Of a stretch of DNA of 64,000 nt, positions 23,444 to 28,250 are shown in pieces. The stretch comes from Sulfurimonas sp. HSL-1656 (GTDB lineage Bacteria > Campylobacterota > Campylobacteria > Campylobacterales > Sulfurimonadaceae): assembly GCF_039645585.1 (NCBI RefSeq), contig NZ_CP147915.1, positions 1,364,001-1,428,000 on the forward strand, given 5' to 3'. The stretch's first letter is position 1. Each line of letters opens with the position of its first letter. A program made the position numbers and the translations under genes. The notes beneath the pieces are model-generated. The model made no database searches. It was not told where the DNA came from and worked only from the letters and a program-made list of their open reading frames with translations.

Positions 23444-24115
23444 ATGGCAGAGTTTGACCCCGAAGCGTACAGGCAGATGGTACGCTCCTACCAGGAGCGC
23501 GACGACCCGCTGGGGTGGTTCGACAGCATCTACAGCAGCGCCAACGGCGACCACACCGCCGTCTTCTGGGCCGACCTCGCCCCCAACCCCTACCTGACCG
23601 ACTGGCTAAAGGCGCACCCCCTCGCCCCAGGGGAGAAGAAAAAGGCCATTGCCGTCGGCTGCGGCGTCGGCGACGATGCCGAGGAGCTCTCCGCCTACGG
23701 CTACGACGTCACCGCCTTTGACATCGCCCCCAGTGCCATCGCACTGTGCAAGAACCGCTATCCCGACAGCAAAGTGGAGTACCTCATCGCCGACCTGTTC
23801 GACTACCCTGAAGCATGGCGAGCAAACTACGACGTCGTCTACGAATGCAACACCATCCAGGTACTGCCGGGCAAGTACCGCATCATGGCCCGCGACGCCA
23901 TGGTCTCGCTCCTCACCCCTGGCGGCACCATCCTCGTCTCCTGCCGCAGCCGCCTGGCCGGAGAACAAACTGACGCCATCCCCCTCCCCCTCGACAAAGA
24001 CGAGATCGGCGGCTTCGTCCGTGCGGGTCTAAACGAGGAAAGCTTCGTCGCCTACGACGACGACCAGACACCGCCCGTGCCGCACTTCTTCGCCACCTAC
24101 CGTAAACCACTTTAG
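23444..24115 (+). CDS. Class I SAM methyltransferase, TPMT-like
   Basis: A 223-residue methyltransferase with SAM motif I IAVGCGVGDDAEELSAYGYDVTAFDIA and a DVVYECNTIQVLPGKYR motif IV/post region similar to the thiopurine methyltransferase family (which also includes metalloid and thiol methyltransferases). The acceptor is unknown. AAGGAG precedes the ATG. It is the last GC-rich gene before the AT-rich island. Confidence 0.8.
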   Translation: MAEFDPEAYRQMVRSYQERDDPLGWFDSIYSSANGDHTAVFWADLAPNPYLTDWLKAHPLAPGEKKKAIAVGCGVGDDAEELSAYGYDVTAFDIAPSAIALCKNRYPDSKVEYLIADLFDYPEAWRANYDVVYECNTIQVLPGKYRIMARDAMVSLLTPGGTILVSCRSRLAGEQTDAIPLPLDKDEIGGFVRAGLNEESFVAYDDDQTPPVPHFFATYRKPL

Positions 24116-24160
24116 CTCACAGGTAGTACTAATTAGCCTCCTTCCCTCTACATCTACAGT

Positions 24161-24189
24161 TTGACAAAATAAAATTTATCACTCATATT
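24161..24189 (+). promoter_or_regulatory. Candidate promoter of the AT-rich island
   Basis: A perfect TTGACA at 24161-24166 and CATATT at 24184-24189 separated by 17 bases. A separate TATATT at about 24254 is an alternative -10 nearer to the first gene. A full -35 hexamer is unusual in this window and fits foreign DNA. Confidence 0.4.
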
Positions 24190-24290
24190 TTCAATGTTAA
24201 ATCACAAAAAATACAGCAACTTGATATTAGAAAATAAGTTCTATAGTACACTGCTATATTTACTAATTAATTGCTTTATAAAGGAAATCC

Positions 24291-24998
24291 TTGCCACTTT
24301 ACAAATTTATTGAAAGGGAATTTCTAGAGGCTTTCTTTAGGACAGGGTCTCTTCGACTTGGCACAATATATGATTTTAAAGATATCGTAGAACATGGTGT
24401 AAGTCGAGGTGATGAAGCTGAAGGTGAACATCATCTTATACGTGGAATAGATGGAACTGTAAGTATCAGTAAAGATAAATACGAACCTATAATATCAGAG
24501 ATTTTCAGAGTAGAGGGCGAAGGAAAAATCTCCCTTTGTAACTTGAGTGTTGTTGTTCCGAGACGATGCCAAGATGGTTTCATTTTCTGTACTAGCTCTA
24601 TTTACAATGAACAATTATTTAGAAAATGGAATAAAGAAAATGATTTGGATGCATGCTATGAAATTATAAACCAAATCGGATTTATATCAGCAATAAATAA
24701 AGCAATAAAAGACAGTGCAACCTTCTTTGCATGTTCGAATGTAACATATACAGAGAAGCAAATAGATTACCAAACACCTGAGGCTAATCTCCACCCAGCA
24801 TTCACTAAAGTAAAGGATGATTATAGTTGGCAGCATGAGCATAGAATAGTCTGGGGTGCAAGAGGGCCTTCTGGTCCTTTGAACCCTTGGATTGTATATG
24901 TTCCTGAAGCTATTCAATACTGTCGGCCTTTTGCATTTTTGGAGAATGGGGTAATCACTCAAGCACAGAATATACGAAAACATAAAAAAGAAATATGA
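24291..24998 (+). CDS. DUF2971-like protein of unknown function
   Basis: A 235-residue AT-rich gene product. The layout resembles DUF2971 proteins: an N-terminal LYKFIEREFLEAFFRTGSLR block followed by LGTIYDFKDIVEHG, a middle FIFCTSSIYNEQLFRKW segment, and a late aromatic/acidic block SWQHEHRIVWG that matches the W-x-E-x-E/H-R motif of that family. No activity is known for sure. The start is TTG at 24291 with an AAGGAAA site at good spacing. The stop overlaps the next gene by four bases, so it is part of the island operon. Confidence 0.6.
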   Translation: MPLYKFIEREFLEAFFRTGSLRLGTIYDFKDIVEHGVSRGDEAEGEHHLIRGIDGTVSISKDKYEPIISEIFRVEGEGKISLCNLSVVVPRRCQDGFIFCTSSIYNEQLFRKWNKENDLDACYEIINQIGFISAINKAIKDSATFFACSNVTYTEKQIDYQTPEANLHPAFTKVKDDYSWQHEHRIVWGARGPSGPLNPWIVYVPEAIQYCRPFAFLENGVITQAQNIRKHKKEI

Positions 24999-25687
24999 AT
25001 CTGGAAATGACATTCATAAACAAATTAAATAATGAAATAAATAACCTATGGAATCAAGCAGCGTTGTCAGAAACACTTGGACGACAGCCTTTGTATTATC
25101 ACGAGTTAAAAAAGAATTGTGTTCTTTTCATTGGTATCAATCCATCTTTTAGTTCACGAGGCTTTGAATCATATTTAAAAGACAGTAATGATTTTTCCAG
25201 GTTGAATGCAGAAACTTTTTATAAACATCCAAATAGTAATTTTGATATTAATGAATCCATAGAAATTGAAAAAGAAGCTAGAAAAAAATACTCCTATTTC
25301 AAGAAGTTTCATGTAATCGATGAAGACTATGAACACATAGACTTATTCCTTATTCGAGAAACAAATCAAGCAAAACTAAAAAAGATTATCTATAGAAAAG
25401 GTGAAACGCTAAGTGAGTTTGCAAAAAAACAAATCGACATTTTTCATCGTATTCTCTTAGAAATTAATCCACGAGTAATTGTGGTAGCGAATGCACTGGC
25501 CAGTCAAATCATCCAAACAGAATTTGATACACAAATTGACAATGAAAAGGGATGTCATATCCTCCCTATTAATGGAAAAGCTGTGCCTATATTCTATACC
25601 TCAATGCTGACTGGTCAACGTGCTCTTGATAATTTCTCATTTGAGCGACTTAAGTGGCATCTAGATTTTGTCATGGCCAGCACTTGA
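24995..25687 (+). CDS. Uracil-DNA-glycosylase-superfamily-like protein
   Basis: A 230-residue protein. CVLFIGINPSFSSRG matches the catalytic/water-binding motif of MUG/UDG-like proteins (GINPG/S), INPRVIVVANALASQIIQ matches the next strand-helix of that fold, and IFYTSMLTGQRALDNFSFERL sits where the HPS/NPS loop occurs, though the usual His or Asn is replaced by Thr-Ser. It could be a base glycosylase or a binding-only relative. It overlaps the preceding gene (ATGA). Family assignment is by motif reading only. Confidence 0.55.
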   Translation: MNLEMTFINKLNNEINNLWNQAALSETLGRQPLYYHELKKNCVLFIGINPSFSSRGFESYLKDSNDFSRLNAETFYKHPNSNFDINESIEIEKEARKKYSYFKKFHVIDEDYEHIDLFLIRETNQAKLKKIIYRKGETLSEFAKKQIDIFHRILLEINPRVIVVANALASQIIQTEFDTQIDNEKGCHILPINGKAVPIFYTSMLTGQRALDNFSFERLKWHLDFVMAST

Positions 25688-25724
25688 GTACTCAACTTTA
25701 TACACTGAATATATAGGAAAAATT

Positions 25725-26186
25725 TTGAAGAAACCATATCGAAGAATTGAAGCAAAATCTAATACACATGCTGGAAAAGACTTCGAAATTGCGGCTCAAG
25801 TATTTTTCGAAGAAAAAGGGATTCCGTTATACCAAAATGTAAAAGTTCCCATTGGCATTAGGACAACTAAAAAAGAACACGCTTTTGACCTTGGAAGTAT
25901 AGAAGAACGAACTCTCGTTGAGTGTAAATCCCATAAATGGACTCGTGGAGGCAATGTTCCCAGTGCGAAGCTAACCATTTGGAATGAAGCTATGTATTAT
26001 TTTTTAGCCGCCCCTGATGGGTATCGAAAAATCATGTTTGTCCTTCGCGATTACAATGAAAAACGGGACGAAACACTAGCTGAGTACTACCTAAAAAAAT
26101 ATAGGCACCTTATCCCTGTTGATGTCGAATTTTGGGAATACGATGAAGCAACAAAAAAAGCGAAGCAACTCTCATTTAACAAATAA
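25725..26186 (+). CDS. PD-(D/E)XK nuclease-like protein
   Basis: A protein of 153 residues (172 if a TTG at 25668 is used). The core HAFDLGSIEERTLVECKSHKW gives the D...ExK active site of PD-(D/E)XK nucleases, preceded by GKDFEIAAQVFFEEKGIPLYQNV, the usual first helix and strand. Restriction endonuclease-like, Mrr-like or Holliday-junction-type roles are possible. TTG 25725 is chosen because AGGAAA lies just upstream; TTG 25668 overlaps the UDG-like gene by 20 bases with no clear ribosome site. Last island gene. Confidence 0.62.
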   Translation: MKKPYRRIEAKSNTHAGKDFEIAAQVFFEEKGIPLYQNVKVPIGIRTTKKEHAFDLGSIEERTLVECKSHKWTRGGNVPSAKLTIWNEAMYYFLAAPDGYRKIMFVLRDYNEKRDETLAEYYLKKYRHLIPVDVEFWEYDEATKKAKQLSFNK

Positions 26187-26203
26187 GTTTTGTGGAATAC
26201 GTT

Positions 26204-27145
26204 CTATAACCTGTACGGCGTTGCGCTCAAAAAGAGATAGGGTTTCCCGGTCAGCGTTACCCGAAACTTCTTCTGTTGCAAATACTTCTTGCAGAAATAA
26301 ACGTCCTTGTAAAGCAGTGACTGCTCCGAGAAGGCGTAGTTGGGTGCTTTGGCACCGTAGATGAGTTCCCCATCCGTCCAGCGGCTGTTGGGGAAGCCAA
26401 GGATGACGCTGCCGCCGGGGGCGAGATAGTTTTGTATGAGCGACATAAAAAGCGGCTTGAACTCCACGCCGGGGCTCTGCAGTGTTCCAATGCTCATAAT
26501 GAGGTCGAAACGTCCCAGGTCGAGACTGCCAAGGTCGTTGATGTCATGAACGTGGAAAGTCACATTAGGCTCGGGGAACTTTGCCTGCGCCTCGGCGATG
26601 GCCGTCGATGAGTGGTCGATTCCGACGAGTTCTATCTCTCGAAAAGAGTCGCTGAGCATCCGGCGGATCAGCTCGAACTCCTCCCCGCTGTTGATGCCGA
26701 GGTTGAGCACCCGCTTCCGCTGTACTATTTTGACCCGTTCCAGTGAATGACGATAGGCCCAGAGGAAGGCCGGTTCCTCGTTCTTGTTGATGGCTGCAAA
26801 GGGGGAAGCCACGCCGTACTTCTCCGTCCTTTCCTCCACCTCTTCGCGGTGGAAAGACGAAGCCGTATCCAGTTTCATAAAGCATAGGCGGACGGTACCA
26901 TTTTCGAGCCGTTCGGGGGTCATCATGCGGCACAGCAGCAGCTCCGCAAGGTCGGTCCAAGCCTTGTATCCGCGGTAGAAGTACTCCACACCTTCAACGG
27001 TAATAATCGCTCCGGCGTAGCTGCCCGCCCCCAGGTCGGGGTCGAGGACGGAAAACTCGACATTCTCCCCAGCTCCGAGCTGCGCCACCTTTGTTTCGAG
27101 CAGAGACAAAATCTCCGTCATCGGTTCGGTCGTAAACGTCAGCAT
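26204..27145 (-). CDS. Class I SAM-dependent methyltransferase
   Basis: A 313-residue protein. The C-terminal two thirds hold a Rossmann methyltransferase: VLNLGINSGEEFELI (motif I), IELVGIDHSSTAIAEAQ (motif II), FDLIMSIGTLQSPG (motif IV). The N-terminal 120 residues are not recognised. Start ATG 27145 follows GGGAGAAG; an upstream in-frame start at 27172 would overlap mltA. It lies eight bases after mltA on the same strand. Acceptor unknown. Confidence 0.78.
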   Translation of the reverse strand: MLTFTTEPMTEILSLLETKVAQLGAGENVEFSVLDPDLGAGSYAGAIITVEGVEYFYRGYKAWTDLAELLLCRMMTPERLENGTVRLCFMKLDTASSFHREEVEERTEKYGVASPFAAINKNEEPAFLWAYRHSLERVKIVQRKRVLNLGINSGEEFELIRRMLSDSFREIELVGIDHSSTAIAEAQAKFPEPNVTFHVHDINDLGSLDLGRFDLIMSIGTLQSPGVEFKPLFMSLIQNYLAPGGSVILGFPNSRWTDGELIYGAKAPNYAFSEQSLLYKDVYFCKKYLQQKKFRVTLTGKPYLFLSATPYRL

Positions 27146-27152
27146 CTTCTCC

Positions 27153-28250
27153 CTACTCCGCTTTCGGCACAAGGAGCCAGAGGCGGAGCGGCGATTTCAT
27201 CCGCCCGGCTTCCGCCTCCGCGTGCTCGCCGTAGCCCCAGAAGAGGTCGGCGCGCACCTGCCCCTTGATGGCGCTGCCCGTATCCTGTGCCATGGCCAGG
27301 AGCTGCAGCGGTTCTCCTCCGAGGGGTTCGACGGCGTCGACGTAGACGGGGTAGCCCAGCGGGATGCGCGTTCGGTCGACGGCGACGGAGTGCATCGGCG
27401 TCAGCTCCGCGCCGAGCGTGCCCGTCGCCCCCTGGGTGCGCAGGCCAAAGAAGATATAGCTGGGATTAGACTCCAAAATGCGCTTCTTCTCTGCCGGGTG
27501 GCTGCGAAGGTAGGCGCGGATGGTCTGCAGGGAGATCTCGGCTTTGGGAATGAGCCCCTCCTCGACCATCAGCTTCCCGATGGAGCTGTAGGGGTGGCCG
27601 TTGCGGTCGGTGTGGCCGATGTAGAGGGTCGTGTTGTCATCGAGCAGTACCCGCCCGGAGCCCTGGACATGGAGGAAAAAGCGGTCGATGTCGCTGCTGA
27701 CATAACAGAGCGGCTGCGCGTCGACGTCCCCGGCGTTGATCTGCGCCCGGGAGGGGTACGGTACCACGCGGTTGCCCTGCAGCCTGCCGCGCAGGTATTG
27801 GTGCGCAAGCTCCGGGTAGAGCAAGGCCAGCTCGACGCGCAGCAGGTCCTTCGGCGGTGCGTACAGAGGAAAGGGGTAAGCGGCGCTCTGATTCGCAGAG
27901 CCGTGCAGGAGCGGTTCGTAGTAGCCCGTCATCAGCCCCTCACTCTCCCCCTGCTCCGACAGCATAAAGGGGCGGAAGTTCGCTTCAAAAAAGGCTTTGG
28001 GGTCATTGCTCTTTTCCGCCTCTTCGCAGAGCGTCTGCAATGCTGGCACCTTGTTCAAGCCGCACTGTTTTTTGAAAACGGCCAGCCCTGCCGCTGCTCT
28101 TTGTTCGTTCCACTGCGGCAACTTGTCAAAGGATACGAAGACGCCGCTGCTGTCCGCCTCGCCGTTCAGGTTCAGGTGTGTTGCTTTCTCGGCACAGCCG
28201 GTCAAAAAGGTCAGAAAAACAAGGGTAAAAAGGGAATGAAAAATGTACAA
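27153..28250 (-). CDS. mltA: Membrane-bound lytic transglycosylase A
   Basis: A 365-residue lipoprotein: signal with lipobox LTGC at residues 16-19 (MYIFHSLFTLVFLTFLTGC). The MltA core is visible in GLMTGYYEPLLHGS, VELALLYPELAHQYL, DIDRFFLHVQGSGRV and the 3D domain end LAMAQDTGSAIKGQVRADLFWGYG with its conserved Asp residues. It degrades peptidoglycan to anhydro-muropeptides. The start is TTG at 28250; the ribosome site is weak, but the signal peptide begins here. Confidence 0.9.
   Translation of the reverse strand: MYIFHSLFTLVFLTFLTGCAEKATHLNLNGEADSSGVFVSFDKLPQWNEQRAAAGLAVFKKQCGLNKVPALQTLCEEAEKSNDPKAFFEANFRPFMLSEQGESEGLMTGYYEPLLHGSANQSAAYPFPLYAPPKDLLRVELALLYPELAHQYLRGRLQGNRVVPYPSRAQINAGDVDAQPLCYVSSDIDRFFLHVQGSGRVLLDDNTTLYIGHTDRNGHPYSSIGKLMVEEGLIPKAEISLQTIRAYLRSHPAEKKRILESNPSYIFFGLRTQGATGTLGAELTPMHSVAVDRTRIPLGYPVYVDAVEPLGGEPLQLLAMAQDTGSAIKGQVRADLFWGYGEHAEAEAGRMKSPLRLWLLVPKAE

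Follow-up and report, generated by a model that had tools for sequence, protein, structure and literature searches.

An AT-rich three-gene insert of Sulfurimonas sp. HSL-1656 as a probable local allele of a variable integron-cassette site

Introduction

Between two methyltransferase-like genes of Sulfurimonas sp. HSL-1656 lies a short stretch of AT-rich DNA carrying three tightly packed genes, here called A, B and C. A preliminary description, made from the sequence, took the three for a candidate defence module working as one system. We ask how this DNA came to lie at this place, and whether its genes belong together. The window is the whole stretch of 64,000 nucleotides that was analysed (contig NZ_CP147915.1, positions 1,364,001 to 1,428,000), and all positions are counted from its first letter.

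Results

The insert and its borders

The GC fraction is 0.344 between 24116 and 26215 and 0.595 in the rest of the window, and a GC profile of the whole window finds its lowest-GC 2.1-kb stretch at just these coordinates. Nucleotide similarity to sister genomes ends at 24116 and picks up again at 26215–26219, and the borders of the insert are therefore true borders of an insertion or replacement. The profile and the two breaks in similarity bear out the earlier description of an AT-rich island with abrupt borders.

24116–26215, no strand: AT-rich variable insert, with different inserts at exactly the same site in three genomes of the genus
23444–24115, plus strand: left anchor, SAM methyltransferase-like gene (Pfam Methyltransf_25, 1.8e-11)
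26204–27172, minus strand: right anchor, methyltransferase-like gene (Pfam Methyltransf_31, 3.3e-10)
24161–24189, plus strand: promoter-like TTGACA-17-CATATT
24236–24252, plus strand: AAGTTCTATAGTACACT, 17 bp matched exactly at the left border of the insert in sister genome G005
24291–24998, plus strand: gene A, 235-aa DUF2971-like protein, PHROG 13198 family
24995–25687, plus strand: gene B, 230-aa protein with a Mug-type motif 1 (GINPSFSSRG) and no motif 2
25725–26186, plus strand: gene C, 153-aa putative PD-(D/E)XK-type nuclease (E40, D74 and E85-C-K87 in the numbering of a 172-aa reading)

The TTG start of gene A is preceded by AAAGGA, and the ATG of gene B lies within the ATGA stop of gene A, which gives an overlap of 4 bp. 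As listed, the open reading frame of gene C runs from 25668 to 26186 (the 172-aa reading), but the TTG at 25725 is the likelier start, since the N-termini of C homologues begin at the residue encoded there and AGGA stands ahead of it. With this start the gap between B and C is 37 bp, and the arrangement described before, three co-directional genes with a 4-base overlap and a short gap, is confirmed by the layout of the reading frames. The proposed TTGACA promoter fared less well: the hexamer is present at 24161, but TTGACA-type promoter matches are no more frequent in the region than expected by chance (8 observed, 7.8 expected in shuffles), and TTGACA-17-CATATT as the promoter of A-B-C is plausible rather than demonstrated.

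The same site in sister genomes

The same two methyltransferase genes flank the same site in three complete genomes of the genus (G004, G005 and G007). The left anchor shares 93–96% amino acid identity with its copies there, and the nucleotide identity between the flanks of the window and those of the sisters is 92–93% on one side and 89–90% on the other. In all three sisters similarity ends at the stop codon of the left gene and restarts where the right gene has its 3′-end; the last codons of the right gene vary between genomes, so that the border of the insert falls there. The sister inserts are AT-rich, 2.6–2.9 kb long, and entirely different in content from A-B-C. In G007 a nuclease-like gene, which gives no match to C by hhalign, accompanies a TIR-like one, whose matches to CAP12/Pycsar TIR (4.4e-4) and to the PADLOC TIR effector (2.7e-4) are weak, the former falling short of the Pfam cut-off; in G004 a caspase gene (C14, 9.3e-19) is accompanied by genes for an HExxH protein and a membrane protein; and G005 carries small proteins and membrane proteins. 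The A-B-C island is one allele of a variable site that holds several gene sets among relatives, and the TIR-like and caspase-like genes in other alleles fit the idea of accessory defence cargo. The 17-bp match AAGTTCTATAGTACACT is possibly an old border common to the inserts of the window and G005.

Integron sites at the locus

A repeat of about 70 bp (TAACAAATCA...GATTGCTCATTTTAAACGTTA) sits between and after the genes of the sister inserts, and attC-like sites of this length (TAACAAAT...AAACGTTA) terminate cassettes in them. An integron attC site is bounded by TAAC and GTTA and encloses an imperfect inverted repeat, and the repeat of the sister inserts matches this architecture. Four members of the genus carry 10–21 copies of it each, in several separate clusters, the genome of the window having 17; in the other four members searched, some of these genomes being incomplete, it was not found. 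A covariance model made from 23 of the copies recovers attC sites in the sister inserts as well as in other clusters; at the methyltransferase site it finds four intact attC in G005, two in G007 and one in G004. Beside an attC array, sister G007 encodes an integron integrase that scores 420.6 bits and clears the curated cut-off. Genes for a 119-aa and a 178-aa cassette protein are common to this main array and to the G005 insert at the methyltransferase site, which links the site with the movement of integron cassettes. The locus between the methyltransferase genes is an integron-cassette hotspot.

In the window insert the covariance model, run with default filters, found no intact attC. An unfiltered search of the window gave its best partial matches at 24159–24202 (E 0.17) and at 26174–26207 (7.3 bits, E 1.7).

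26174–26207, plus strand: possible decayed attC at the 3′-end of gene C, TAACAAAT...ACGTT with the middle missing

The attC-like remnant amounts to 27 bp and has the position that the last attC occupies in G005. Its pattern was met in the last 60 bp of none of 4000 dinucleotide shuffles, a count to be read with the pattern having been picked after the sequence was seen, and going by its letters and position this may be a decayed attC. The window allele itself is not classed as a CALIN, the concept that covers attC clusters lacking an integrase (PMC12444791). No integron integrase above the curated cut-off was found in the genome of the window, and the insertion would thus be old, or the work of an integrase since lost.

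The integrase that is complete in G007 (L146 6857–7831) is precisely missing from the corresponding array of the genome of the window, where the sequence jumps from one side of the integrase position to the other, and a second attI-like copy is followed by only the first integrase codons (L147 5731–5960, L148 10414–10707). Another attC cluster of this genome (L148 5068–5997 and 9207–10148) contains open reading frames that read as class D beta-lactamase-like and DUF4238-like.

Could homologous recombination between co-existing strains, acting on the conserved flanks, have exchanged the insert, integrons playing no part in the window allele? Flanks that remain 89–93% identical across species, similarity that ends right at the gene ends, and a window allele that has no attC all speak for such a swap. 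However, attC sites bound the sister alleles and mark the site itself as a past target of integrons, and a sequence resembling an attC remnant is found where the last attC should be. We regard a swap of this kind as doubtful though quite conceivable, and the two views are compatible, since cassettes may build the alleles and recombination exchange them.

Gene C

No family scored above threshold for C and no PDB entry matched by sequence. In its family, however, F39-E40, F73-D74 and E85-C86-K87 are invariant among 40 homologues, and below threshold Pfam returned Mrr_cat for 4 of the 40 members and PDDEXK_3 for one. The nuclease-like character read earlier from D...ECK is hence upheld at the level of residues, the full PD-(D/E)XK set being present and invariant in the predicted nuclease family.

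The family is large, with at least 140 candidate loci in genome contigs of proteobacteria, firmicutes, other phyla and one archaeon; 80 of these loci, whose proteins are 47–67% identical to C, were studied. Most homologues are lone genes with changing and often ordinary neighbours. In other bacteria attC-like repeats flank C homologues in at least five loci (L009, L012, L024, L033 and L036), and in these bacteria too C apparently moves as a cassette.

Several single neighbourhoods are worth recording. On a Methylobacter plasmid (L005 6046–7204) a gap of 32 bp separates a C homologue (51%) from the PF03167 uracil-DNA glycosylase (UDG) gene directly downstream of it, the pair being placed between IS256-family transposases; this UDG is not B-like. 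We rejected UDG-C as a conserved pair, there being this one clear case among the C loci studied, and we rejected the neighbour of C in L008 as a second UDG, as it has no Pfam match and no UDG similarity. In L045 and L070 (around 6001) C homologues lie just downstream of HsdS-like genes and near HsdR-like genes of about 980 aa, neighbourhoods that look like type I restriction loci, the gene names being given by reading. In Marinomonas gallaica (L017 1058–1729) an AbiV (HEPN) gene (Pfam 1.3e-43) stands just upstream of the C homologue.

Gene B

The UDG-like reading of B stands in one part and fails in another. Its motif 1 (CVLFIGINPSFSSRG) aligns with that of E. coli Mug (RVVFCGINPGLSSAG) over 14–15 residues (hhalign E 3.5e-4, probability 37%), but glycosylase motif 2 (NPSG or HPSP) was not found in B, SMLTGQR standing where NPSGLS is expected, and PF03167 gave no match within a limit of E 1. 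The model of B made from its sequence alone was unusable (pLDDT 40). With motif 2 absent and no usable fold model, a role of B as a sensor of modified bases is unproven.

B is rare. A first genome-wide scan with B alone gave no match; searches of another 396 genomes from the phylum and of 385 alphaproteobacteria did not find the gene, and its distribution is sporadic (1/397 and 1/321 genomes). One gammaproteobacterium has a relative (46%), alone between ribokinase-like and peptidase-like genes, and a more distant one (23%) is found on a Runella plasmid without A or C. On the Runella plasmid (L004 2678–7052) the B homologue lies beside a cytosine-5 methyltransferase gene and an MvaI/BcnI-type endonuclease gene.

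Gene A

Gene A matches PHROG 13198 over most of its length (E 2.6e-15). Conserved in an alignment of 11 sequences are the LY[KR] start (K/R5), C-x-S at 100–102 (S or T at 102) and Q-x-E-x-R at 181–185, with Q181-x-E183 invariant, and K/R5, S102 and Q-x-E183 may correspond to the R-S-E set of the ADP-ribosyltransferase (ART) superfamily. A model made from the 11 sequences (mean pLDDT 79.8) had no significant Foldseek match in PDB and viral fold searches. Structural re-alignment of this model placed an ADP-ribosyltransferase toxin subunit on top (Z 3.7, rmsd 3.9, 109 aligned), the next rows reaching Z 3.1; the gyrase, kinase and tail-protein rows of the fold searches were taken as noise.

The assignment of A to DUF2971, perhaps as a distant relative, is tentative. 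DUF2971 proteins from relatives have the same order of landmarks as A, but neither A nor its relatives gave a Pfam match, the gathering score of PF11185 was missed, and a profile comparison by hhalign aligned the last motif with E 0.016 and a probability of 2.8%. DUF2971-like, possibly ART-like, is our best lead for A from sequence and model, and is not established.

Relatives of A occur in chromosomes and on an Acinetobacter plasmid, and in temperate phages such a relative is a lone gene between structural genes; among the three genes, phage records contain A only. The distribution is sporadic (2/100 and 1/321 genomes), and the phage-borne gene was not found in the E. coli genomes searched. 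In Klebsiella phage 1 LV-2017 an unannotated homologue lies between the small terminase and lytic enzyme genes (L090 3459–4154). A DUF2971 gene lies inside the coordinates of the main attC array of G005 (L164 1309–2049, G005:C1:936076), and genes of the DUF2971 type may travel as cassettes in the genus.

Do A, B and C occur together?

None of the 80 C loci studied has A or B within 6 kb of the C homologue, and no two of the three genes were found together outside the window, A and B having been searched in part of the genomes. Viral-contig scans gave no match for B or C, scans of all three proteins with Pfam, NCBIfam and PADLOC gave no credible family, and no defence-library match of note was obtained for any of them. 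The proposal of one three-gene defence system is thus unsupported, as homologues of the trio were never found together in the collections searched. What survives of the candidate defence module is foreign, AT-rich cargo at a site with TIR-like and caspase-like alleles; co-occurrence lends no support to a three-part unit.

One may still argue that A-B-C is a real but rarely assembled three-part operon, in which B recognises or excises modified phage bases, C cuts and A is the effector. Its advocates could point to the tight layout, in which A and B overlap by 4 bp and B and C are 37 bp apart, to the Mug-like and PD-(D/E)XK motif readings of B and C, to the C homologue 32 bp upstream of a PF03167 UDG gene in Methylobacter, to the B homologue beside methyltransferase and restriction genes in Runella, and to Brig1, a glycosylase of UDG-like fold that is an established anti-phage protein (PMC11078745). 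But B has no glycosylase motif 2, the Methylobacter UDG is not B-like and is the one such neighbour among the C loci studied, and there is no second genome found with any two of the three genes. We consider such an operon improbable. The best reading of the sequence comparisons is that A, B and C, each of them separately mobile, were brought together locally and recently.

Discussion

We suggest that the island is a local allele of a variable integron-cassette site, carrying interchangeable accessory and possibly anti-phage cargo, and we give this reading a probability of about 0.72. Cassettes with AT-rich accessory genes and attC sites of about 70 bp would have been inserted at several chromosomal places, the methyltransferase site among them, and the A-B-C operon would be one such cassette load, its attC decayed or lost. 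C would then be a common stand-alone nuclease that is often cassette-borne, A a gene borne by phages and plasmids, and B a rare gene. Foreign genes would reach the integron target, stay while they are useful and then be replaced. The arrival of A-B-C as a cassette in this genome, like the enzyme activities of the three proteins, is something that we infer.

The likeliest role of the cargo is an accessory one against phages, in which C could cut foreign DNA, B could bind or excise bases in it, and A could be an effector of the ADP-ribosyltransferase-like or DUF2971 type. That at least one of the three has a defence role we hold to be about an even bet, an estimate that rests on published integron stores of anti-phage genes (Darracq 2025; Kieffer 2025; Getz 2025, in the passages of PMC12444791 and PMC13092281 that cite them) and on Brig1 as a defence protein with a UDG fold. 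Nuclease C is the strongest candidate among them. A joint mechanism of all three, on the other hand, we think unlikely. The same low expectation applies to a more elaborate proposal, in which A-B-C would be a composite anti-phage cassette of recent assembly, made up of an ART-like effector of the DUF2971 type, a Mug-like base sensor and a PD-(D/E)XK nuclease; here B with its altered motif 2 would sense modified or damaged phage bases, and the unit would be exchanged against TIR and caspase modules.

The genes could instead serve housekeeping or stress functions, with B as a DNA repair glycosylase alongside a nuclease, and the Mug-type motif of B and the many C homologues that are lone genes beside ordinary ones would agree with this. 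Such a function does not sit well with the sporadic occurrence of A and B in the genomes counted above, with the foreign base composition of the insert, or with residence in phages, plasmids and cassette sites adjoining defence-like alleles, and we find it rather unlikely. Returning to the cassette-site reading, we point out that close relatives swap whole accessory, partly defence-like gene sets at a single integron target without any change in the order of the host genes, and that four natural alleles of one locus are available for comparison. Two unnamed families are worth testing as single-gene defence candidates: C, with its loci in bacteria and an archaeon, and A, a single accessory gene in temperate phages.

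Comparison with known systems places the parts at different distances from what has been described. PHROG 13198, a family of phage proteins of unknown function, provides a family name for A and no functional explanation. With DUF2971 (PF11185), A has in common the order of landmarks, namely the LY[KR][YF] start, the [CL]-x-S strand and the K...W-x-[QE]-x-E-x-R end, but it differs in having neither the NDP nor the LMWSHY stretch. B resembles Mug/TDG-type uracil-DNA glycosylases in the motif 1 that it shares with E. coli Mug, and departs from them in having no motif 2 and no PF03167 match; to Brig1, the case of a UDG-like fold in defence (PMC11078745), it can be likened by description, its own fold being putative. 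The C family has the E...D...E-C-K residue set of the Mrr_cat-like PD-(D/E)XK nucleases, but unlike Mrr, C is a stand-alone protein of about 150 aa without the Mrr DNA-recognition domain. As to the locus, the window allele differs from integrons and CALINs in having no intact attC, and its genome in having no integrase above the cut-off, whereas the canonical attC sites that sister genomes have at the locus, the dispersed cassette clusters and the integrase in one sister liken it to sedentary chromosomal integrons and CALINs.
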